64,000 nucleotides of DNA. Origin: an uncultured Bacteroidales bacterium. Its GTDB lineage: Bacteria > Bacteroidota > Bacteroidia > Bacteroidales > F082. Where the stretch lies: assembly GCA_947305795.1 (NCBI GenBank), contig CAMZEK010000003.1:35352-99351 (forward strand), read 5' to 3'. Below the pieces are notes generated by a model. It saw nothing but the letters and a program-made list of their open reading frames with translations, had not been told where the DNA came from and ran no database searches. Position numbers and translations under genes: made by a program. This document shows, piece after piece, positions 4,471 through 29,049 of this stretch; the stretch's first letter is position 1, and the number at the start of each line of letters is the position of its first letter.

Positions 4471-5559
4471 ATGAAAAAACATCTGTTATTCCTATTTGCA
4501 TTGGCACTCGGCCTGACTGCCTGCAACAACAAATCCAACCAATTTAAAGTGAGTCTCAGCCTGAAAAATGGCAACGACCAAACCGTCTACCTGCAAAAGT
4601 ATGTCGATAATGCTCCTGTTACCATCGACTCGGCTGTCATTGCCAACGAAATGGCCATCTTGACCGCTACCAAGGACGACCCGCAGATTCTTTATACTCT
4701 GAAAATCAAGGGTAAACGCGGCTATTTTCCTTTCTTTACCGACAACCAAGACATGACCCTTGTGGGCGACCTCAATAACATGAATGACGCCGTAATCACA
4801 GGATCGGAAACGCAGGAGGAATGGAATGCCTATGAGGAGACACAAAATCAGTTCAACGACCAAATCCGCGAACTTTATGCCGTGATGCAACAGGCTTTTG
4901 CCGATAACGACTCCATCGCAATGGATTCGCTTAACACCGTCGGCACTGCCCTGATGGAACAGCAGGACAATTACCGCGATGAGTACATCAAAAACCATGG
5001 CGATAGCTTCCTTGCCCATTACCTTTTGGACGAATCGAAGCAAGATTACGACCTTGCCTCGTTGAAGGAACTCGTGGCTGGCTTCACTACTGAATCCATC
5101 TACACTAAAGACCTCAATGATTACATCGCCAAGCAAGAACGCCTTGAAGTGGGCCAACCCTTCATCGACTTTACGCTGAAGACCAACAACGACACGGAAG
5201 TCGTCCTTTCCGAAATGATTCCTCAAAACAAGCTCACCTTGGTTGACTTCTGGGCTTCGTGGTGCGGTCCGTGCCGCAAGGAGAATCCTGTCGTAAAGGC
5301 CGCCTATGAGCAGTTCCATGAATTTGGTTTTGATGTCATCGGTGTCAGCGTCGACCAAGACGAGGCCGCTTGGCTGCAAGCCGTGGAAGAAGACCAATTG
5401 CCCTGGACGCAGGTGCGCGATGCCGAAAACAAGGCCAGTGAAGCCTATCTGATTTATTACATTCCGTCCAACTTCCTCTTCGACCAGAATGGCACAATGG
5501 TGGCCAAAGGTTTGAGGGGTGATGACTTGGTGGCGAAACTGAGCGAAATCCTGAAATAA
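4471..5559 (+). CDS. TlpA-family thiol:disulfide lipoprotein with DUF4369 N-terminal domain
   Basis: Lipoprotein signal (LTACNN), DUF4369-like N-terminus, WASWCGPCRKENP thioredoxin active site. Confidence 0.9.
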   Translation: MKKHLLFLFALALGLTACNNKSNQFKVSLSLKNGNDQTVYLQKYVDNAPVTIDSAVIANEMAILTATKDDPQILYTLKIKGKRGYFPFFTDNQDMTLVGDLNNMNDAVITGSETQEEWNAYEETQNQFNDQIRELYAVMQQAFADNDSIAMDSLNTVGTALMEQQDNYRDEYIKNHGDSFLAHYLLDESKQDYDLASLKELVAGFTTESIYTKDLNDYIAKQERLEVGQPFIDFTLKTNNDTEVVLSEMIPQNKLTLVDFWASWCGPCRKENPVVKAAYEQFHEFGFDVIGVSVDQDEAAWLQAVEEDQLPWTQVRDAENKASEAYLIYYIPSNFLFDQNGTMVAKGLRGDDLVAKLSEILK

Positions 5560-5560
5560 T

Positions 5561-5660
5561 GCAGAATTATGAATGCGGAATGTGGAATGCGGAATAGGAG
5601 CGAAGCCCAGCGTCGCTTTGCGCTATTCTGCATTCCGAATTCTGCATTCCGAATTAAAAA
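5561..5660. repeat. Palindromic dispersed-type repeat (gaatgcggaat / attccgaattctgcattccgaatt)
   Basis: gcagaattatgaatgcggaatgtggaatgcggaatag ... ctattctgcattccgaattctgcattccgaatt; arms complementary around gagcgaagcccagcgtcgctttgcg. Confidence 0.7.
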
Positions 5661-5669
5661 CAACACGCT

Positions 5670-6719
5670 ATGAAAACCAAACTTATCCTTTTAACCACAC
5701 TTGTGCTGGGTATTTTTGCCTGCACCTCAAAGCCTGAAACTGAAACCTTTAAGGTTTGTGTGAACCTCGCCAACGCTGATGGGCAGACCATTTATCTGCA
5801 AAAGGATGGTCAAATCCTTGATTCAACGACGATTGCGAATTGGGAAGCCATGTTCAATACTCCCGTTTGCAAGGACAACGAGATGTACGGCCTCATGCTG
5901 AAAGGCTGGCGTCGTCCATTTTCGTTCTTTACTGATAATGTGGACGTTACCCTTGAAGGCGATGCGCAGAATCCGAACCTTATTGTGGTGAAAGGCTCCG
6001 TGTCACAAGACCATCTTAATGCCTTCACGGAGAGCTATAACGCCTTGGAAGAGAAGCTTGAGGCCGACAGTACCATGGCCCAAGCTGACAAGGATGAAAT
6101 CCTGAAGATGCACTGCTTTGACTTCGTTTGGGACAACCCCACCGACCCCGTGGCGCATTATGTGATGTACCGCTACAAGTGGGCTTTCGGTCCCTGTGAG
6201 TTGCGCACGATGATTGACAATATCCATCACGCCGATAGCACGATAACTTCCAAGAATTTGACAATGGCTGAGGAATATGTGGAAAAGCTAGAGCGCGTGC
6301 AAGCTGGTCAGCCTATCATCGACTTCACCCAAAACGACCCCGATGGTAATCCCGTGACACTCAGTCAACTCGCCCAAGGCAAGCTGTTGTTGGTCGATTT
6401 TTGGGCCTCATGGTGCCCCGACTGCCGCAAGGCCAACCCTGGTGTGGTGGCGGCTTATCAGAAATACCATGAGCAAGGCTTTGACGTGCTTGGCGTTTCG
6501 TTCGATACGAACAAGGAGGCTTGGCTTGCCGCCATTGAGAAGGATGGTCTCACCTGGACCCATGTCTCCGACCTGCAAGGCTGGAGCAACGCCGCTGGAG
6601 CCTTGTACGCCATTGCTTTCATCCCGCAAAACGCCCTTATCAAGGACGGCATGATTGTCGCCCGCAACCTTGAAGGGGAGGAGCTGATGGAAGAGATTGA
6701 ACGACAGTTAAATAAGTAG
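5670..6719 (+). CDS. TlpA-family/DUF4369 thioredoxin-like lipoprotein (paralog of 4471..5559)
   Basis: Same architecture; active site WASWCPDCRKANP; lipobox IFACTS. Confidence 0.88.
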   Translation: MKTKLILLTTLVLGIFACTSKPETETFKVCVNLANADGQTIYLQKDGQILDSTTIANWEAMFNTPVCKDNEMYGLMLKGWRRPFSFFTDNVDVTLEGDAQNPNLIVVKGSVSQDHLNAFTESYNALEEKLEADSTMAQADKDEILKMHCFDFVWDNPTDPVAHYVMYRYKWAFGPCELRTMIDNIHHADSTITSKNLTMAEEYVEKLERVQAGQPIIDFTQNDPDGNPVTLSQLAQGKLLLVDFWASWCPDCRKANPGVVAAYQKYHEQGFDVLGVSFDTNKEAWLAAIEKDGLTWTHVSDLQGWSNAAGALYAIAFIPQNALIKDGMIVARNLEGEELMEEIERQLNK

Positions 6720-6734
6720 CCGGATTATTTCGGA

Positions 6735-7259
6735 TTACTTAATCTCGTAAGTGTTCACCGTCCCGATGGGTTCTACCAGAACCATTTTGATTAGCTTGCG
6801 GTCGGATAGGCGGTAGGTCAATTCCACGGAGGAATAGCCGCCTCTCGGCACTTTTCCGTTGACGGTGAGGGTAACTGTGCGGAGTCCTTTGGCTTCTGTT
6901 ACGGAAGTCTCTGCATTGTTTTCTTCCGCGGCTTGTCTCCAATTTCCTGAAAGACAGTTTAATAGTGTGGAACGCTGCAATTGCACCATGGGAACTTTTT
7001 GGGCGTCAATTTCGGCTTTCTTGCCGTCCATGTTCATTTTCACCTGCATACCGTCGACGATAAAAAACTCGCCTTCAGGGTTGGTGTAAGTCATGGAAAG
7101 CTGCTCGTCTCCGTCAAAAACGAGATGTCCGGCCTTGTTGATGGTTTTTCCCGACACCTTCATAAAGCGTGTCTGCGTGAAATCGGTGTCATACTGATGT
7201 TGGGCAAATGCAGTGAGGGAAAGTAGCACTGCAATGATAATCAAGTTAATACGTTTCAT
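6735..7259 (-). CDS. LolA-like outer-membrane lipoprotein carrier family protein
   Basis: Signal peptide; FTQTRFMKVSGKTINKAGHLVFDGDEQLSMTYTNPEGEFFIVDGMQVKM typical of Bacteroidetes LolA-like proteins. Confidence 0.75.
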   Translation of the reverse strand: MKRINLIIIAVLLSLTAFAQHQYDTDFTQTRFMKVSGKTINKAGHLVFDGDEQLSMTYTNPEGEFFIVDGMQVKMNMDGKKAEIDAQKVPMVQLQRSTLLNCLSGNWRQAAEENNAETSVTEAKGLRTVTLTVNGKVPRGGYSSVELTYRLSDRKLIKMVLVEPIGTVNTYEIK

Positions 7260-7498
7260 TTTGGTAGATTGTCTAAATAGGTGACTACATCGTTTACGGT
7301 TTCAAATTTGGCCAAGGCCTGATCGGGGATGACGATGCCGTAATCGTCTTCGAGGCGCATTAAAAGTTGCAGGATATCGACGGAATCGGCACCAAGGTCG
7401 CGTTTGATTTGGGCGTCGAGCGTGACCCGCTCTGGGTCGATGCGCAGCTGACGCGCTAAAGTGGCTTTTACTACTTCGTACATATTGTTCAGATTCAA
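7256..7498 (-). CDS. Acyl carrier protein (dedicated, operon-embedded)
   Basis: 80 aa; DLGADSVDILQLLMRLEDDYGIVIPDQ phosphopantetheine site DSVD; 4-nt overlap with LolA-like gene. Confidence 0.92.
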   Translation of the reverse strand: MNLNNMYEVVKATLARQLRIDPERVTLDAQIKRDLGADSVDILQLLMRLEDDYGIVIPDQALAKFETVNDVVTYLDNLPK

Positions 7499-7524
7499 AG
7501 ATTTAAAATTTAAAATTCAAAGAT

Positions 7525-8544
7525 TTAATATTCGTAATGTTCGTAACGCATGATGATCTCTTCTATTTTTACAGATAACGCGCTGACTTCCATCTTGTAG
7601 GCTTGCTCGATGCATTTCTCCACTGCCGTGGCTTTGCTGGAACCATGGCCTTTCACAACCGTCTTCGAGGTGCCCAACAACACGCTGCCACCGTAGTTTT
7701 GGTAGTTCATGAATTCCTTTTCCTCCATGAACATCCGTTTCATCAGCAGGGCACCCAACTTGTAAATTGGCCTTGAATAGATGTCCTTCTTCAGCTTTTT
7801 CAACAGTTCAAGAGCGGTGCCTTCGGTAGTCTTCACGAGCACGTTGCCCGAAAAACCGTCGCAAACCACCACATCGTAGTTGCCTGAAAGCAAGTCACGG
7901 CTCTCCATGTTGCCCACAAAATGGATTTCGGGAGTCTCACTTAGCAAAAAGTGTGCCTTTTGACGAATCTCGTCGCCTTTTTCTGCTTCTTTTCCGACGT
8001 TGAGCAAGGCAATGCGCGGTTTTTCGATGCCGTAGACTTTTTCCATATAGAGGCTCGACATGATGGCGAACTGCCTCAGGTGCTCAGGCGTGACCTCCAC
8101 GTTAGCGCCACTGTCGCAAATCCCGACGAGGCCGCCATCCATGGTAGGCAGGATAGGGCAGAAGGCTGGCCTAATGACGCCTTTCACGCGGCCGATACGG
8201 GTCAGGGCAGCAGCAACGAGGGCACCAGTGGAGCCAGTGCTCACCATGGCATTGATGTCGTCGCAATCACGCAACATACGGACGGCCTTAATCATCGAGC
8301 TTTCCTTTTTCAGGCGGATGGCGTCGATGGGACGTTCCTCACAGCCGATGACCTCAGGCGCGTGGACGATTTCCAACCTCGAAGTGTCGTAGCTTTTGTT
8401 TTTGAGGTAGTTTCTCAAGGTGCTTTCGTCGCCTGTGAGAATCAGATAAAGATCTGTAAATTTGGCCATTGCAGCCAAGGCTCCATCCACGTTGGCCTCG
8501 GGGCTGTGGTCGCCTCCGAAACAATCTATTAGAATTTTTATCAT
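7525..8544 (-). CDS. plsX: Phosphate acyltransferase PlsX
   Basis: IDCFGGDHSPEANVDGAL, VSTGSTGALVAAAL, VCDGFSGNVLVKTTEG, GTSKTVVKGHGSSKA. Confidence 0.95.
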   Translation of the reverse strand: MIKILIDCFGGDHSPEANVDGALAAMAKFTDLYLILTGDESTLRNYLKNKSYDTSRLEIVHAPEVIGCEERPIDAIRLKKESSMIKAVRMLRDCDDINAMVSTGSTGALVAAALTRIGRVKGVIRPAFCPILPTMDGGLVGICDSGANVEVTPEHLRQFAIMSSLYMEKVYGIEKPRIALLNVGKEAEKGDEIRQKAHFLLSETPEIHFVGNMESRDLLSGNYDVVVCDGFSGNVLVKTTEGTALELLKKLKKDIYSRPIYKLGALLMKRMFMEEKEFMNYQNYGGSVLLGTSKTVVKGHGSSKATAVEKCIEQAYKMEVSALSVKIEEIIMRYEHYEY

Positions 8545-8561
8545 GGTCGATTCTTTTTTGT

Positions 8562-8729
8562 CACAAAACCTGTAAAACCCTCAAAACCTTTTTCTTGGGT
8601 TACGGAAAGCACGCCCCTCATTCCGAACTTGATTCGGAACGGCTGCTTTCCAGCGGCGACACGGTTGTGGAGCCGCTTCTCGTTTTTCATTGGAACAATC
8701 ATCGTTTTGCAAGTTTTGACGGTTTTGTG
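8562..8729. repeat. MITE-like compound palindrome between plsX and acyltransferase gene
   Basis: Imperfect terminal inverted repeats cacaaaacctgtaaaaccctcaaaac / gttttgcaagttttgacggttttgtg (about 20/26 match) enclosing nested hairpins ggaaagc..gctttcc, attccgaacttgattcggaa and agcggc..gccgct. Confidence 0.6.
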
Positions 8730-8737
8730 ATTAAAAT

Positions 8738-9862
8738 CTACATTCCCAACATTTTAGTATAACACCTACGTCGTTTAATTTTCTCTTCGTCAAACCGTTT
8801 CCATTGGTTCTGAATCGCGTAATTCTCTTCCAAATTGGAGTTGGTTTCGGCATAGTCAATCCGTTTGAGCATCTTCATCATTTCGGAGGAAATAATGACG
8901 CTTACGCCTCGATTGAGCCATTCAGGTTCGACACCGATGATGCAAAGGTCGATGACATTGGGCTTTTTCAAGGCTTTGAGCAGCCTTATGAGCGTAAGGG
9001 GTGTCAATCGTCCGCCCGAAGGTCTCACTGCGTCGGCGATGGCGGGGAAAGCCAGTCCGAAGCAAATCATCTTTTCGTTCTCGTCAAGGATGACGGCGGC
9101 ATATTTCACATCGATGACGAGTTTGAAATTGTCGATCATCATCTTTTTCATGCCTTCGGTGAAGGGCACGGTGCCATAAAGCAGTTCGTAGGACTTGTCC
9201 AACAATTCAAAAATGCCGTCGGCGTATTTTTTGATGAAATCATTGGTGTTGCGCGCTGTGCCGATGTGCAGGTTGTAGCGTTTCATCACGAAGGCGGCCA
9301 ACTTGTCGACCTCGTCACTTCCTTCTTTGGGAACGCGGAGGCGACTACCCGTCCAATCGACATCTTTTCGATAACCGTAGTTTTCGATAAAGGTCTGATA
9401 ATAAGGGTAGTTATATGATTCCTCAAAAGTGGCGGGATAGTCAAACCCTTCAATGAGCAGGCCTTCGCGTTCGAGGTCGGAATAGCCCAAAGGCCCTATG
9501 ACCTCATTCATGCCTTTAGTGACGGCCCAGTCTTCCACCGTTTTGAGCAGTTTTTGCGCAGCTTCTTCATCCTCAATGACATCAAAACGGGTGAAACGCA
9601 CTTGTTTTTTGCCTGTCTTCTCATTGGCAGCACGTTGCACGATGCCCGAAATGCGTCCCGCCATCTTGCCGTCTTTGTAGGCATTGAAAAAGACAGACTC
9701 GCACATATCGTTGTAAACGAAATCCTTACGGAAGATTTTCCTCTCGTCCATGTACAAGGGCGGGGTGAAATAAGGGGCCCCTTTGTAGAGTTTCAGCGGA
9801 AAGTCCAGGAATTCTTTCTGTTGCTTCTTTGTTAATACTTCTGTTACCGTTATCACTGACAA
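8738..9862 (-). CDS. GNAT-like acyltransferase, ~374 aa (YghO / bacterial ceramide synthase-like family suspected)
   Basis: FLDFPLKLYKGAPYFTPPLYMDERKIF..., AGRISGIVQRAANEKTGKKQVRFTRFDVIEDEEAAQKLL, VIGPLGYSDLEREGLLIEGFD; paralog of 24833..25948. Confidence 0.65.
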   Translation of the reverse strand: MSVITVTEVLTKKQQKEFLDFPLKLYKGAPYFTPPLYMDERKIFRKDFVYNDMCESVFFNAYKDGKMAGRISGIVQRAANEKTGKKQVRFTRFDVIEDEEAAQKLLKTVEDWAVTKGMNEVIGPLGYSDLEREGLLIEGFDYPATFEESYNYPYYQTFIENYGYRKDVDWTGSRLRVPKEGSDEVDKLAAFVMKRYNLHIGTARNTNDFIKKYADGIFELLDKSYELLYGTVPFTEGMKKMMIDNFKLVIDVKYAAVILDENEKMICFGLAFPAIADAVRPSGGRLTPLTLIRLLKALKKPNVIDLCIIGVEPEWLNRGVSVIISSEMMKMLKRIDYAETNSNLEENYAIQNQWKRFDEEKIKRRRCYTKMLGM

Positions 9863-9896
9863 TAATCTTTAAATCTTTGAATCTTAAATCTTTAAA

Positions 9897-10766
9897 TCAC
9901 CTATGCTTAGCATGGAAGCAGATGCCCAAGCCATTAGGCCCGCAGTGGCTGCCGATAGTGGGATTGACGACGGTGGTGATGACGTTCAGGTCTTGGCCGA
10001 ACTTCTCTTTTAACAATCTTTCCGCTTCGGCGGCGATGTCGGGGCAGTCTGAGTGGCCGATGACCACGCGGTGGGCTTTCACGTCCTCGCCGAGTTCCTC
10101 GACGTATTTTACCAAACGTGCAATGGCTTTGGCTCGACCCGTCTCCTTGCCAATGCTCACCATCTTGCCCTCGTCGTTGAGGTAGATGATGGGACGGATG
10201 CCGATGAAGCCGCCCATCGTAGCTGCCAAGCCGCTCACGCGACCGCTACGACGGAAGAACTTCAGATCGTCGGCGAAGAAGTACATTGGGAATTTCGGCA
10301 CCTCGACTTTGGCCCATTCCACGATTTCCTCAGCGGTCTTGCCATCTTTCAGCAGGTTGGCTACTTCAAGGACAACATTGTAGCACAACGCGCTGATACC
10401 CAATGTGTCAACGGTGTAAAACTTCCTTTCGGGATATTTCGCTTTCAGTTTTTCCACCGCCTGATTCATGATGGTGAAGGTGTTGGAAGTGCCCGATGAG
10501 AAATGCGCATAAAGAATGTCGTTTCCAGCCGCAAATTCAGGCTCAAAATATTGTGTATAAGCTTCTTCGCTCATGGCACTTGTAGTCGGCATGGTGCCAG
10601 CGCGAAGCATGTCATAGAACTTGTGGGAATCAAATTCCTCGAAGTCAACGTAAGGATAAATTACTTGATTATCAATGGTGTACGGCATACTAATCAGTTT
10701 GATGCCATACGCAGCGCACTCCTTGGGAGTGATATCGCAATCGGTGTCGCTAAAAAAGGTCAGCAT
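9897..10766 (-). CDS. fakB: DegV family fatty-acid-binding protein (FakB-like)
   Basis: FFSDTDCDITPKECAAYGIKLISMPY, PTTSAMSEEAY, HFSSGTSNTF, FFADDLKFFRRSGRVSGL, NPTIGSHCGPNGLGI; adjacent to FakA-like gene. Confidence 0.85.
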   Translation of the reverse strand: MLTFFSDTDCDITPKECAAYGIKLISMPYTIDNQVIYPYVDFEEFDSHKFYDMLRAGTMPTTSAMSEEAYTQYFEPEFAAGNDILYAHFSSGTSNTFTIMNQAVEKLKAKYPERKFYTVDTLGISALCYNVVLEVANLLKDGKTAEEIVEWAKVEVPKFPMYFFADDLKFFRRSGRVSGLAATMGGFIGIRPIIYLNDEGKMVSIGKETGRAKAIARLVKYVEELGEDVKAHRVVIGHSDCPDIAAEAERLLKEKFGQDLNVITTVVNPTIGSHCGPNGLGICFHAKHR

Positions 10767-10800
10767 GGTATGTGGTATTTTGTTGTTGGACTATGACCAG

Positions 10801-10876
10801 TGACTATGACTATGACAGCTTTTACGAAAGATATGAAGTTCATCGATTCCGATTATGCTGTCATGGTCATTGTCAC
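10801..10876. repeat. Imperfect inverted repeat in fakA-fakB gap
   Basis: tgactatgactatgacagc (10801) versus gctgtcatggtcattgtca (10857); 17/19 complementary. Confidence 0.6.
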
Positions 10877-10897
10877 AAGTCATTGTCGAAAATTCAT

Positions 10898-12535
10898 TCA
10901 TATACAAACGATTATATAATCATAAACCGGCTGTGCGCCGTTGTTCAACATAATTTCAAGGTTTTTGTATTGGGTTTGCAGGTCGGCGATGAGTTTTTCG
11001 GCCTCATTTTGAGGCACTTGCTCCCCGAAGAAGATGAGCATCACGTCGCGGGAGGCGGCGCCAAGGCGTTCCACCAAGGCTTTGGCGGCGGTTTCGCGGT
11101 CGGGACTGTCGGAAAGGAGTTGCTTGCCGCTGTAACCGACAAAGTCACCCGTGTGGACGCTCACTTGCTCGCCTTCGGCATCGCGGATGGCGGTGGAGAC
11201 CATGCCCGTCACCACAGACTGCATGATTTCCGTAACGCTGGCGATGACTTCGTCAACATTGGGATTGTCGCGGTCGATGGAACCGATGCCGTAGTAGCCT
11301 TCGCCGATGGTGGATGATGGAAGCACGTGAATGTCAGCATTTTTATAAAGTTCAGCAGCTTGGTCGGCGGCCATCTTGATGTTCTTGTTGTTGGGGAAAA
11401 CGAGGATGTGTTGAGCGTTGATTTTCGCAAAGGCATCCAAGAAGTCTTGTGTCGCGGGGTTCATCGTTTGTCCGCCTGCAATCACCTCGTCGACGCCAAA
11501 TTCACGGAAGGCATCGATGAGACCTTCGCCCGAGGCCACCGTTACCACACCGTATTTCTTCGGGGGTGTCTTGAACGAGGCGTTGTTCTGGTTGGTCGAT
11601 TGGTGGTGTTGCAGCGCCATGTTCTCAATCTTGATGGTCAGGAACTCGCCGTATTTCTGCATTTCGTTGAGAATCACGCCAGGCGTGAAGGTATGCACAT
11701 GCACTTTTATGATGGAGCCTTCACGGAAGGCCACTACCGACTCACCCACACGGTTCAAGTAGTCGAAAATCACGTTCTCGTCGAAAGTGTCTAAATTGAC
11801 CTTAGAGCGCATCAGACGGAGCAGGAATTCAGTGCAATAACCAAACTCCAAAGTGCTGTTTTCGGTGAATTTGTCAAGTTCTACGGTGGGTGCTGAAGCT
11901 GTCGTTGGGACAATTTCTTCCTCAGAAATTTGGCCGTTCAAGGCATCGTTCATGCCACGGAAGATACTCAACAAACCCGCACCGCCGCTATCGACCACGC
12001 CAGCGTCTTTCAGCACTTGCAGCAGTTCGGGTGTGTGGTCTAAGGAAACCTGCATGGCCTCCAATAAAGTCTCAAAATAGTGGTTCAAGTCCGAACTTGC
12101 ATCGGCATCCGCTACGCCTTCGCGTAACACGGTGATGATGGTGCCTTCGACGGGAACGGGAACAGATTTATAAGCTTCTTCCACAGCCGATTGCATGGCT
12201 TTGGTAAAGGTTTCTGTGTCCGCTTCGATGACTCCTTGCAAACCTTTGGCAAGCCCGGCGAAAATGCGTGAAAGGATGACACCCGAGTTGCCCCTCGCGC
12301 CAAGCAACATCCCTGACGAGGCCGCCGAAGCCAGTTCAGACAACGTTCCGAGATGATTCTTGAGCGTATCGCAGCCTGCCTTGAGGGTCATCAGCATGTT
12401 GTCGCCAGTGTCGCCATCGGGGATGGGGAAAACATTCAAGTCGTTGATGACCTTTTTGTCTCTGCCCAATTGTACTGCGCCTTGGCGCAACATTGCGGCG
12501 AAAGTTAGGCTATCGAGTTCATTTGTTTTCTGCAT
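10898..12535 (-). CDS. fakA: DAK2-domain fatty acid kinase FakA-like
   Basis: FPIPDGDTGDNMLMTLKAG kinase motif, SSGMLLGARGNSGVILSRIFAGLAKGL, C-terminal EDD-type region; ~545 aa as for FakA. Confidence 0.88.
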   Translation of the reverse strand: MQKTNELDSLTFAAMLRQGAVQLGRDKKVINDLNVFPIPDGDTGDNMLMTLKAGCDTLKNHLGTLSELASAASSGMLLGARGNSGVILSRIFAGLAKGLQGVIEADTETFTKAMQSAVEEAYKSVPVPVEGTIITVLREGVADADASSDLNHYFETLLEAMQVSLDHTPELLQVLKDAGVVDSGGAGLLSIFRGMNDALNGQISEEEIVPTTASAPTVELDKFTENSTLEFGYCTEFLLRLMRSKVNLDTFDENVIFDYLNRVGESVVAFREGSIIKVHVHTFTPGVILNEMQKYGEFLTIKIENMALQHHQSTNQNNASFKTPPKKYGVVTVASGEGLIDAFREFGVDEVIAGGQTMNPATQDFLDAFAKINAQHILVFPNNKNIKMAADQAAELYKNADIHVLPSSTIGEGYYGIGSIDRDNPNVDEVIASVTEIMQSVVTGMVSTAIRDAEGEQVSVHTGDFVGYSGKQLLSDSPDRETAAKALVERLGAASRDVMLIFFGEQVPQNEAEKLIADLQTQYKNLEIMLNNGAQPVYDYIIVCI

Positions 12536-15002
12536 GGGCTTTCTTTTTCAATACACTCCGTCTATAGGCTGGAATCTTCATCAGCTGCCAAAATACAAAC
12601 GGCTGCAGCGAGTATGAAATCATGATGGTTGAGGCCATGCCGATGAGGGTGCTCAGACCAATGGAACGGATGGCTGGATGAACCGCAAACAGCAGCGAAG
12701 TCACCACAATGACAAGGATGATGGCTGAGAAGAAGATGGCTACCTTGTGCCAGGTAAGCACGTCTCTGTTGCCTGTCCGCGCTTGCGAGAGCAGGCCTTC
12801 GGTGATGAAAATGCTGTAATCCACACCCACACCGAAGATGAAGGTCGAAATGATGATGCTGACCAGGTTGAATTCTAGGCCGATGAGAGCCATGTAGCCC
12901 TGAACCATGAACCAGCTGAGTACCATTGGGAGGAAAGAAAGGAGGGCCGTAATGAGATTGCGGAACGAGACCAACAATATCAGCAGCACGAAAAGTGATG
13001 AAATCCAAACGGCAATGTTGAAGTCGTCATGAATGACTTCAACCATACTCTTGCAGTAGTAGAACGGTTCCAAAACAAAGGTCTTTGGGTTGACAACCAA
13101 AGCATCGGTCACAATGTCTTTTTCGTCAAAGCGCATGGCGACATCGGTGAACACCATGTATTGGTTGTCGGCATTGCATTCGATGAAATTGCCAAGTAGA
13201 TTCTCGGGCACCACACCGCTTTTTATCAGCGAAGCAGGCTCATAATCGGCATTCAGCAGTTCCTTAAAATCATAGAACATCATCGGGTCGAGGCCAAAGT
13301 CCAAAGCTCCTTTCTCGATTTGCGAGATGGCAAAAGTCTTCCGTCCCTCAGTCCAGAAGGCGTTCCATGCGGCGATGCGCTGTTCTTGGTCCGTTTGCGT
13401 CACGAAGAGCTTGGGAATGATGTCAGTATAGGCATGTACGACTCCTTGTTTTGCTAGCGTGTCCAAAATGAGCATCAGCGACTTGTCGGCCTCCAAAGCT
13501 TCGTCGATGTCGGTGGAAACCGTAGCGAAATACAAATGGAAGAAGCCGTCGTTGTTCTTTTCGTTGAAAAGAGATTCGGCGGTTACCTCGGATGGCGAGT
13601 TGTAATCAAGATTGCGCAGGTCACTGTCAAACTTCACCTTAGGTGAGAAGATGATGCCCACCACGAGAATAACCACCATCAGCGCGAGGAACCAAGGTTT
13701 CTTGTCGAAAGGCAGATTGTTGAGGCGTGAGATACGTCGGAAGGTCTTGTCATCTGCCTTAGCATTCCGTTTCGGCAGAAAATGAGGCAGGAAGATGAGG
13801 GCAAACATTGTGCTTCCGAACAAGGCAAACGAGGCGAACAGGCCAAAATCACGGAGCAAATCGCTCTCGGTGAAAAGCAGGCTACAAAATGCGCCAATCG
13901 TTGTAATACACCCTAAGAAAACTGGTGTGGACTCATCCGACAACAATTTTTCAGGGTCGCCGACAAAGAAATGGTGGATGAGCACGTGCAGGCAGTAACT
14001 GATGGCAACGCCCAAGATAATCGCACCTAAACCCAATGCCATCAGCGACATGCCGCCTTTAATCCAATAGATGCAGGCCAACGAGAAGAAGGCACCGTAG
14101 ATTATGGGAAGCAAAAGCTCCCAAAGGAACGAGAAGCTTCTGAAACATAACCAAATAAGTATCAATATCAAAATCAACGAAATACCCACCGTCACCACCA
14201 AATCAGAACGGATGCGTCCAGCATTCGACACGCTGCCGATAGGGTCGCCATGGGCATGGACTTTCACATCTGGATGCATCGACTCAAAGTCTTTCTGCGC
14301 ACGAGAAAGCATCTTGGAAAAGTCGGTCGAAGCTCGCGAGTCCAGCGAGCGGAAGGCAGGAGCAAGATAGGCAATGGCCACGGTGCTGTCGGGACAAAAT
14401 AGCTGTCCATCGATGATGTTATAGCTGTTGCTGGCACTCAAAAACACCTCGCCGAGCACCACGCCCCTCAAGTTGAGTGGGTCGTAGGCGATGGCTTGGG
14501 TAAGATCGCCCGTCTCGTCTTCCATCATCTGTTCGTAGTTGACCCACATCTGCTTTTCGATGGCCTTTGGTTCCAAGGCTTTTTCAAAATCGCGATAAGC
14601 CGAAGTGTCAATGAAGGAAGGAATATGCTCTAATACGAAATCCAAAGCATTGATAGCCACCTCGGGTTCCATCTTATATAAAACGTTGGAAATGAAATGG
14701 GTCGATGAGTCTCGCTCAAAAAGAAGGTCGATAAATTCATCCATCTTTTCACTCAACACCTGAGGCGATAGCCTTTCCTCAGCCGAAGTCACTTGGATGT
14801 ATATCTTATCTTTCAATTGTATCGAGGAGAATGCCAACTGACTCTCCACGTTCGATTCGGGCAACAATTTGGTGATATCTTCCTCATAATGCAACCTCAG
14901 GCCAAAAAATAAAAAGACGATTGTGGAAAGCACTAAAATGATGTACATCAAAGTTTTATGGTGCTCAAAGAAACGGTATATCGGCAAAAATACTATGTGC
15001 AT
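12519..15002 (-). CDS. MMPL/RND superfamily lipid exporter
   Basis: 827 aa with two blocks of ~5-6 TM helices (ILILILIWLCFRSFSFLWELLLPIIYG; GVGVDYSIFITEGLL); overlaps fakA by 17 bp. Confidence 0.85.
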   Translation of the reverse strand: MHIVFLPIYRFFEHHKTLMYIILVLSTIVFLFFGLRLHYEEDITKLLPESNVESQLAFSSIQLKDKIYIQVTSAEERLSPQVLSEKMDEFIDLLFERDSSTHFISNVLYKMEPEVAINALDFVLEHIPSFIDTSAYRDFEKALEPKAIEKQMWVNYEQMMEDETGDLTQAIAYDPLNLRGVVLGEVFLSASNSYNIIDGQLFCPDSTVAIAYLAPAFRSLDSRASTDFSKMLSRAQKDFESMHPDVKVHAHGDPIGSVSNAGRIRSDLVVTVGISLILILILIWLCFRSFSFLWELLLPIIYGAFFSLACIYWIKGGMSLMALGLGAIILGVAISYCLHVLIHHFFVGDPEKLLSDESTPVFLGCITTIGAFCSLLFTESDLLRDFGLFASFALFGSTMFALIFLPHFLPKRNAKADDKTFRRISRLNNLPFDKKPWFLALMVVILVVGIIFSPKVKFDSDLRNLDYNSPSEVTAESLFNEKNNDGFFHLYFATVSTDIDEALEADKSLMLILDTLAKQGVVHAYTDIIPKLFVTQTDQEQRIAAWNAFWTEGRKTFAISQIEKGALDFGLDPMMFYDFKELLNADYEPASLIKSGVVPENLLGNFIECNADNQYMVFTDVAMRFDEKDIVTDALVVNPKTFVLEPFYYCKSMVEVIHDDFNIAVWISSLFVLLILLVSFRNLITALLSFLPMVLSWFMVQGYMALIGLEFNLVSIIISTFIFGVGVDYSIFITEGLLSQARTGNRDVLTWHKVAIFFSAIILVIVVTSLLFAVHPAIRSIGLSTLIGMASTIMISYSLQPFVFWQLMKIPAYRRSVLKKKAHAENK

Positions 15003-15062: not shown

Positions 15063-15103
15063 AAAAAAAACATCCGTGCCGATTCTTCAGCACGGATGTT
15101 TTT
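15063..15103 (-). terminator. Rho-independent terminator downstream of flavodoxin-like gene
   Basis: aaaaaacatccgtgc cgattcttca gcacggatgttttt hairpin with T-tract. Confidence 0.8.
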
Positions 15104-15119
15104 CGTTTAATTGTTGTGT

Positions 15120-24832: not shown

Positions 24833-25948
24833 TCAAATCGTTTTCTTGTAGGCTCGCCGACGCATAAAAGGCACGGTATGGTAGTCGCCGAATAGCGACT
24901 GAACCTTGTAGTTCTCCTCCAACTGCGGGTTGAGGATGACCTTGGAGACGTCACGCCGTATACAATTTTCGTGCAGGTACTTGAACAGTAGCAAAGGCAC
25001 GCCACAGCCCTGATACTTAGGTGCTACGCCTATGATGAGGGCTTCCAAGGTGTCGTTTTTCTTCAGTGCCTTGAGAATGTGGATGAATCCAAAGGGGAAC
25101 AGACGCCCGTTGGCCTTTTTCACCGCTTTAGAGAGCGAGGGCACACAAAACAGGAATCCTACGGGTTTGTCTTCTTTATTGACGACTACGGCCACGAAAT
25201 CCTTGTCCAAAATGGGAACGTAGGTGTCCAAGTAGTTCTTTATCTGCTTGTCGGTCAGAGGTGAGAATCCCATCAGCGGCGCGAAGGCATCGTTATACAT
25301 GTGGAAGATTTCCATGCCATATTGCTTGCTCATCTGTCTCATGCTCTTAGGTTGCACCACATGGACGCCATAGCGTTCCTCGATGAGGTGGGCAAATTCG
25401 TAGGTGGACGGCAGCTTGCCATCCAAAAGGAGTACGCTTTGTGTCCAGTCCACGTCCTTCACATAACCCAACTTTTGCAGCATGGTGTCGTAGTAAGGAT
25501 AGTTGTAAAGGCAAGTGAAGGGGCTGAGGTTTTCATAGCCTTCCACCAATAGCCCTTCTTTGTCCATGTCGGTAAAGCCCCACGGCCCAATGATTTCGGT
25601 GCAGCCGCGTTCCTTGCCCCAAGTGATGACAGTATCCAACAAGGCTTTCAGAACCTCTTCATCTTCAATGAAATCGAGCCAACCGAAGCGCACTTTCTTT
25701 ACGTCCTTATTGGCTTTGTGGTTGATGATGGCAGCCACGCGTCCGACGATTTCGTTGTTTTTGTAGGCAAGAAAACAGTCGGCCTCGCAAAAGTCATAGG
25801 CACCGTTTTTCTTTGGGTTGAAAGTGTCGTATTCGTCGCCTTCCAAGGCGGGCACCCAGTTTTCGCAGTTTTTGTAGAGGTGAAGCGGAAAAGCCACAAA
25901 CTGTTTCATTTGCTTGTGGCTTTCCACTTTGACGATTTGGATTTGCAT
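24833..25948 (-). CDS. GNAT-like acyltransferase, ~371 aa (paralog of 8738..9862)
   Basis: FVAFPLHLYKNCENWVPALEGDEYDTFNPKKN, VGRVAAIINHKANKDVKKVRFGWLDFIEDEEVLKALL, IIGPWGFTDMDKEGLLVEGYE; same blocks as paralog. Confidence 0.65.
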   Translation of the reverse strand: MQIQIVKVESHKQMKQFVAFPLHLYKNCENWVPALEGDEYDTFNPKKNGAYDFCEADCFLAYKNNEIVGRVAAIINHKANKDVKKVRFGWLDFIEDEEVLKALLDTVITWGKERGCTEIIGPWGFTDMDKEGLLVEGYENLSPFTCLYNYPYYDTMLQKLGYVKDVDWTQSVLLLDGKLPSTYEFAHLIEERYGVHVVQPKSMRQMSKQYGMEIFHMYNDAFAPLMGFSPLTDKQIKNYLDTYVPILDKDFVAVVVNKEDKPVGFLFCVPSLSKAVKKANGRLFPFGFIHILKALKKNDTLEALIIGVAPKYQGCGVPLLLFKYLHENCIRRDVSKVILNPQLEENYKVQSLFGDYHTVPFMRRRAYKKTI

Positions 25949-25951
25949 AGG

Positions 25952-26200
25952 CTAATGTGTTGCGTTAGCGTGTGAATCAATATAATCAACCACTTCGCCT
26001 ACCGTCGTGAACTTGGGGTTGCCTTCAAACTTGAACCCAAACTTGTTTTCGATGGCGAGGCTCAGTAGCAGGATTGTCAACGAGTCGAGACCAATGTCGC
26101 GGACGAGTTGCGAATCGTCGTTGATGTTGGAGAAATCGGCTGAAGGTCTGATTTTTGTCAGGATATCTTTTAGTTCCTCATATATGGTTTCTTTTCTCAT
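25952..26200 (-). CDS. Acyl carrier protein (second dedicated ACP)
   Basis: LVRDIGLDSLTILLLSLAIENKFGFKFEG: DSL phosphopantetheine site. Confidence 0.88.
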   Translation of the reverse strand: MRKETIYEELKDILTKIRPSADFSNINDDSQLVRDIGLDSLTILLLSLAIENKFGFKFEGNPKFTTVGEVVDYIDSHANATH

Positions 26201-26207
26201 GACCCAA

Positions 26208-29049
<2,842 letters not shown>

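Follow-up and report, generated by a model that had tools for sequence, protein, structure and literature searches.

A mobile fatty acid kinase, PlsX and acyl carrier protein block with a ceramide-synthase-family N-acyltransferase: a candidate lipid-amine acylation module in rumen Bacteroidales

The window analysed here is a stretch of 64,000 nucleotides from a rumen Bacteroidales bacterium, an uncultured member of F082 (GCA_947305795.1, CAMZEK010000003.1, positions 35,352-99,351, forward strand). From position 15002 down to 6735 it contains seven consecutive open reading frames on the minus strand, which encode an MMPL transporter, FakA, FakB, a GNAT-like protein, PlsX, an acyl carrier protein (ACP) and a LolA-like protein, the order that a first-pass annotation of the DNA had already given. 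Homology and genome comparison favour, by a modest degree, the view that this locus is a lipid-amine acylation module, in which FakA, FakB and PlsX would load the ACP and an enzyme of the ceramide synthase family would N-acylate an amine, likely a sphingoid base. The seven genes fall into two modules that differ in origin. MMPL and LolA form an older pair, and FakA-FakB-GNAT-PlsX-ACP is a mobile five-gene block. Genomes and loci used for comparison are denoted by G and L numbers, respectively, and genomes with the block are called carriers.

Central to this assignment is the tandem-GNAT N-acyltransferase of 374 amino acids (aa; 8738..9862, minus strand), for which TTG 9862 and GTG 9856 are the only possible starts. 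The protein has no match in Pfam or NCBIfam and no credible sequence match in the PDB. Its entire length can be aligned with YghO of Escherichia coli (28% identity, 126 bits, E=3e-37), and 18 columns are invariant across a 14-member family alignment that includes both proteins. The best PDB matches of its AlphaFold (AF2) model (pLDDT 90.8, pTM 0.88) are tandem GNATs. These nearest enzymes in fold have very different acceptors, one of them being a histidine acetyltransferase solved with N-myristoyl-histidine. YghO has been named as the counterpart of Caulobacter CC_1154, a bacterial ceramide synthase (PMC9386255), and CC_1154 is the N-acyltransferase needed for dihydroceramide (PMC9386255, PMC11324152, PMC11087976). 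In E. coli BL21, yghO adjoins the genes of a fatty acyl-AMP ligase, a reductase, an ACP and serine palmitoyltransferase (SPT). Paralogues in the order of the window also adjoin SPT (L034, L037, L042, L049, L050 and others), in one case together with a CerR homologue (L039). Because of the homology to YghO, the SPT-adjoining paralogues and the tandem-GNAT model, the protein is assigned to the YghO/bacterial ceramide synthase (CerS) family of N-acyltransferases, the link to CC_1154 running via the YghO comparison. Within this family it belongs to a clade of its own (clade A or subfamily A, support 100), separate from the SPT-adjoining members and from a second family member of the window (GNAT2, clade B). 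It is classed as a CerS-family N-acyltransferase rather than as CerS, ceramide synthase activity being a prediction from kinship. The first-pass annotation had proposed a GNAT-like transferase acting on an amine or an alcohol. The GNAT part of this proposal is borne out in tandem form, and the homology to YghO and CerS narrows the acceptor class, probably to a lipid amine such as a sphingoid base.

The genes around the N-acyltransferase appear intact. FakA (545 aa, 10898..12535, minus strand) matches the domains PF02734, PF21645 and PF13684 (Dak2, FakA-like_M and FakA-like_C), each above cut-off, and passes the broader YloV model TIGR03599 (512.5 bits, cut-off 396.1), while it stays below the cut-off of the FakA_VfrB equivalog (409 bits against 975). 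It aligns end to end with the full-length FakA structure 7w7h_A (358 bits). In FakA of Staphylococcus aureus, Asn32, Asp38, Asp40, Thr41, Asn82, Asp185, Cys240, His282 and His284 matter, among them the Mg, nucleotide and Cys-His-His residues (PMC9136124). The equivalents of all of these are kept, and the motifs LNVFPIPDGDT, GARGNSGV, VVDSGG, GYCTE and VHVHT are present and aligned with the FakA structures. A FakA devoid of kinase residues, which had been named as a finding that would speak against the proposed pathway, is thus not what the locus encodes. FakB (289 aa, 9897..10766, minus strand) is a predicted fatty-acid-binding protein of the DegV family (PF02645 187 bits, TIGR00762 202 bits) that matches the FakB1 structures 6dke and 6alw, its TTS, SSG, GR and GSHCGP motifs being aligned. 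It scores 88 bits against a cut-off of 350 for the FakB1 equivalog. The acyl-ACP:phosphate acyltransferase PlsX (339 aa, 7525..8544, minus strand) passes the equivalog TIGR00182 (338.7 against 243.4 bits) and matches the structures 6a1k and 1vi1 over its full length. The dedicated ACP (PF00550 57 bits; NF002148 78 bits, cut-off 71) carries its phosphopantetheine serine in DLGADSVDIL. Its start is most likely the ATG at 7483 and not the TTG at 7498, giving a protein of 75 aa (7256..7483, minus strand), as in many orthologues. In an order-wide search, most FakA-like proteins of Bacteroidales (L096-L110) were fusions of about 600 aa that join the N-terminal half of FakA to a FakB/DegV domain, a natural fatty acid kinase in one chain.

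The distribution of PlsX bears on where the acyl-phosphate goes. In the genus of the window, PlsX is present once in each of the 11 carriers (11/11) and in 0/10 non-carriers, several of which are 97-100% complete. PlsY could not be detected in any of the nine carriers searched (0/9), and the same search does find PlsY in control genomes. A further member of the genus, G009, has a PlsY match and no PlsX match. Since PlsX accompanies only the block in this genus and PlsY was not found in carriers, phospholipid synthesis is an unlikely destination of the acyl-phosphate there. It has no known consumer but PlsX, which therefore points to acyl-ACP as the product. A model for such a step exists in Enterococcus faecalis, where FakAB and PlsX load exogenous oleate onto AcpB, an auxiliary ACP encoded beside plsX (PMC6509188).

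As for the acceptor, the genome of the window encodes SPT (NF047600 658.5 bits, cut-off 640), and the gene adjoins that of a short-chain dehydrogenase/reductase (SDR), for which 3-ketosphinganine reductase is the best-scoring model (324 bits, under the cut-off of 400). An SDR with this activity has been described from Bacteroides (PMC9278070). In the genus, SPT was found in 11/12 carriers and in 6/18 other genomes (p=0.002, kinship ignored). A clostridial order gave a similar result, with 24/35 carriers against 52/262 others (p=1e-8, kinship likewise ignored), carriers being defined here by a GNAT identity of at least 47% and not by inspection of the neighbourhood. Among the SPT-bearing clostridial carriers, L329, L331 and L333 have an SPT-SDR pair. 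With SPT and a reductase-like gene in the host, and with SPT more frequent among carriers, the leading single candidate for the acceptor, though not a demonstrated one, is a sphingoid base. In the clostridial order as a whole, about a quarter of the sampled genomes have SPT genes, which are 47-50% identical to that of the window genome, and several adjoin a 3-ketosphinganine-reductase-like SDR. In-frame stops, TAA or TAG, occur in several of the clostridial SPT matches (among them G554, G428, G534, G541, G609, G649, G373, G448 and G516); these may be pseudogenes, assembly errors or alignment ends.

The division of the seven genes into two modules follows from their distribution. MMPL and LolA adjoin with nothing between them in two genomes, G033 (which is 99% complete and has no PlsX) and G007 (L234, L195), whereas in the window and about 11 relatives of the genus the five genes lie between the two. 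Additional, unrelated genes separate MMPL from FakA in G021 and G031. The contig scan of named genomes yielded 80 loci, collected by their GNAT with alignment A2 as query, to which the search was narrowed as the full CerS-family alignment proved too diverse. The block was found in the same order in window-like and other Bacteroidales, in many metagenome-assembled genomes (MAGs) of Clostridia, Lachnospiraceae and Ruminococcus, and in a single MAG of Treponema. MMPL precedes the block in the other Bacteroidales lineage, where LolA lies on the opposite strand in three loci and was otherwise not found. None of the Clostridia or Treponema loci of the scan has MMPL or LolA beside the block. Consequently, the seven genes do not form the single unit for which they had been taken: the pair occurs alone in G033 and G007, and the block alone in Clostridia. 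The conserved neighbourhood that the first-pass annotation had looked to Bacteroidales for extends, as far as the five-gene order is concerned, across Bacteroidales, Clostridia and Treponema, while MMPL and LolA belong to it within Bacteroidales only.

The five proteins have also diverged together. All five core genes are near full length in 57 loci, and the pairwise distances of their products correlate at 0.75-0.92, a level reached in 0/500 permutations. The full loci, the conserved order and the correlated divergence rule out a chance neighbourhood. The mean identity of block PlsX between Clostridia and Bacteroidales carriers is 66%, while its identity to housekeeping PlsX proteins in the order of the window is 31-40%, so the block has, on this comparison, moved horizontally; the tree suggests a transfer from Clostridia to Bacteroidales. 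A housekeeping PlsX that moved into the operon could be discarded given the same identities and the existence of sister species without any PlsX. An artefact of MAG binning was judged unlikely for the clostridial copies, whose GC matches the flanks and which come from many independent assemblies, on contigs that reach 179 kb and carry other genes of ordinary clostridial appearance. This verdict covers the clostridial copies and holds less firmly for the Treponema carrier, which is a single MAG. Five clostridial carriers (L280, L289, L296, L305 and L310) have, immediately upstream or in the vicinity, a gene that looks like TetR; one of these was compared with curated models and gave no match.

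The composition of the block varies. In every Bacteroidales copy with room to see them, PlsX and ACP are kept (31/31 and 30/30; 22/22 and 22/22), and the reduced clostridial versions L297, L324 and L301 retain FakB-GNAT and lack PlsX and/or ACP. G038, a distant relative that belongs to a different family of the order, has a PlsC-like acyltransferase (L093:744-2120), part of which resembles a zinc ribbon, in the GNAT position between FakA-FakB and PlsX-ACP. The acyltransferase slot of the block is therefore exchangeable. Three loci of the other Bacteroidales lineage (L314, L322 and L303; 12.4-20 kb) have the block next to genes that resemble, by eye, a polyene or lipid cluster: a second MMPL and AMP-ligase-like, PlsC-like, FabZ-like and glycosyltransferase-like genes.

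Catalysis by the locus would start with FakB, which is expected to present an exogenous (or recycled) fatty acid to FakA, the conserved residues of the latter indicating its phosphorylation. PlsX would then move the acyl group from the phosphate to the dedicated ACP, the direction for which E. faecalis offers the precedent. From the ACP as presumed donor, the YghO/CerS-family enzyme would, judging by homology, pass the acyl group to an amine, most likely sphinganine or 3-ketosphinganine, and the product would be an N-acylated lipid of the dihydroceramide type. In Bacteroidales only, MMPL and LolA may carry this product to the outer membrane, as their position and families suggest. The route from fatty acid via acyl-phosphate and acyl-ACP to an amine, as outlined in the first-pass annotation, gains good comparative backing from the FakA residues, the PlsX model, the joint travel across phyla and the CerS homology.

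Several observations weigh against a sphingoid base as the acceptor or against the ACP-dependent route. The activity of YghO has itself been assigned by homology. Clade A sits on a long stem and does not itself adjoin SPT, and its substrate may differ from that of the SPT-adjoining paralogues. The co-occurrence tests are uncorrected for kinship, and SPT-type genes were not found in G034, a 100% complete carrier of the block, in about one third of the clostridial carriers or in the Treponema carrier. ACP or PlsX is missing from some clostridial copies (L280, L289, L297 and L324), the hosts of which may supply them. Much of this would fit an enzyme that uses the same acyl-ACP and a different amine, such as an amino acid, a biogenic amine or an aminolipid, and that makes N-acyl amino acids or fatty acid amides. 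Carriers without SPT and the long stem of clade A speak for this explanation, as do the widely differing acceptors of the nearest tandem GNATs, including the enzyme bound to N-myristoyl-histidine, and the fatty acid amides that gut Clostridia make via another route (PMC13142362). The association with SPT in two unrelated groups and the fact that the only assigned relatives are ceramide synthases count against it, and we consider it rather unlikely, albeit the strongest of the rivals.

Distinctly less probable is a plain scavenging operon, which would channel exogenous fatty acids into membrane glycerophospholipids with the GNAT as an incidental passenger. FakAB-PlsX-ACP is indeed the standard scavenging route of Firmicutes, and the PlsC-like enzyme in the GNAT position of G038 would suit it. 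However, PlsY, the user of acyl-phosphate, went undetected in 9/9 carriers, sister species are viable without PlsX, and L324 and L301, without PlsX or ACP, keep FakB and GNAT (a point that is biased by the collection of loci via their GNAT). Those same reduced copies, together with L297, are what a GNAT that takes acyl-phosphate directly would predict, PlsX and ACP then merely balancing the pool with fatty acid synthesis. Yet PlsX and ACP are retained in all Bacteroidales copies with room to show them, and in related modules the partners of the GNAT are an ACP and an AMP ligase instead of a kinase, which makes this mechanism very improbable. Acylation of a lipid amine from acyl-ACP remains the preferred reading.

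The remaining features of the locus concern its borders and the export pair. MMPL, an RND-type lipid transporter of 827 aa (12519..15002, minus strand; PF03176 48.6 bits), has HpnN as its best NCBIfam model, but at 117 bits it is far under the cut-off; the hopanoid transporter equivalogs TIGR03480 (117 against 751.85 bits) and NF052374 (46.8 against 1100) do not apply. Its gene overlaps fakA by 17 bp (12519-12535), and that of the ACP overlaps lolA by 4 bp (7256-7259), both exactly as previously read. The LolA-like periplasmic carrier (174 aa, 6735..7259, minus strand) has a signal-peptide-like N-terminus and passes PF03548 (28.5 bits, cut-off 23.6), while it is under the cut-off for LolA2_flexi (61.7 against 125 bits). 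Overall, Pfam and NCBIfam profiles upheld the earlier family assignments for MMPL, FakA, DegV, PlsX, ACP and LolA. The terminator noted ahead of the run proved a real one: a strong hairpin with a U tract at about 15065-15104 (15065..15104, minus strand; -26.8 kcal/mol, z -7.05), which is the intrinsic terminator of the upstream flavodoxin gene and separates that gene from the seven. No RNA families were found in the window with Rfam. At the other end, two adjoining plus-strand thioredoxin/DUF4369 paralogues occupy 4471-6719, the second converging on the lolA end with a gap of 15 bp.

A second CerS-family module, termed module B (24833-27734), is present in the same window and is kept in the genus. 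It comprises GNAT2 (24833..25948, minus strand; 27% identity to YghO, 137 bits), which matches PF00583 with 32.7 bits in two stretches and falls into clade B with a support of 99, a dedicated ACP of 82 aa (25952..26200, minus strand) with the motif DIGLDSLTILLLSLAIENKFG, found at the same place in many relatives, and an AMP-forming acyl ligase (26208..27734, minus strand; PF00501 187 bits), a candidate acyl-ACP synthetase. The ligase adjoins ACP and GNAT2 in L023, L024, L048, L051, L174, L183 and others, and is FadD-like rather than a member of the fatty acyl-AMP ligase subfamily of E. coli. Module B sometimes adjoins SPT (L210, L180), and in L023, L024 and L209 it converges directly on the block from its LolA side.

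It is tentatively proposed, with less than even confidence, that the mobile operon enables gut Bacteroidales, Clostridia and a spirochaete to convert fatty acids of their environment into ceramides or similar N-acyl lipids, via acyl-phosphate and PlsX working towards ACP. If so, sphingolipids would be assembled here in a hitherto undescribed way. An enzyme of the ceramide synthase family would have taken over the fatty acid kinase pathway of Firmicutes as its source of acyl groups, the combination would have spread among the phyla of rumen and gut, and PlsX would gain a role without PlsY. Gut Clostridia with both SPT and the block would be unrecognised sphingolipid makers, directly testable as producers. 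Fatty acids of the diet would then also have a candidate route into bacterial N-acyl lipids, and bacterial sphingolipids act on mammalian hosts.

Each half of the system is known: FakAB-PlsX-ACP in Firmicutes and the dedicated ACP with CerS in proteobacterial sphingolipid operons. A literature search that reached few subscription papers found no published description of the two combined in a single transferable operon, in keeping with the first-pass annotation, to which the gene set was unfamiliar. The combination of MMPL and a LolA-like protein recalls the flexirubin/aryl polyene and HpnN-type export modules, the best NCBIfam models being HpnN and LolA2_flexi. Unlike in those modules, the curated cut-offs are not reached, and the domains of the seven genes (Pfam/NCBIfam) include no ketosynthase, as had been remarked before in arguing against such a cluster. 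Fatty acid amide clusters of gut clostridia were reportedly presented by Chang et al. in 2021. The Oaa clusters (OaaA/OaaACP/OaaC) resemble the block in placing an exogenous fatty acid on a dedicated ACP and forming an amide with a small amine (PMC13142362). In contrast to the block, they use an adenylation enzyme, an ACP and a condensation domain of the nonribosomal peptide synthetase type, and neither a fatty acid kinase nor PlsX is mentioned in PMC13142362; Pfam and NCBIfam detect no condensation domain in the seven-gene run, and the two were ruled out as the same gene set.

The proposed loading half is shared with E. faecalis, where fatty acid is likewise converted via acyl-phosphate to acyl-ACP and the ACP is encoded beside plsX (PMC6509188), but there the pathway serves phospholipid synthesis and FabT regulation and lacks a CerS-family enzyme. 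The acylation half is best compared to the rhodobacterial sphingolipid operon (aasR-acpR-spt-cerR-cerS/yghO; CC_1154 and CC_1162-1165 in Caulobacter; also E. coli BL21, where it was seen directly). Both have a dedicated ACP, a loading enzyme of their own and a YghO/CerS-family N-acyltransferase. They differ in that the SPT and reductase of the Bacteroidales host lie elsewhere in its genome, that the clade A enzyme is distinct, and that positions 6735-15002 encode no acyl-ACP synthetase but FakA, FakB and PlsX, which would do the loading. FakAB and PlsX would thus stand in for AasR, the acyl-ACP synthetase that loads AcpR in the proteobacterial sphingolipid operons.

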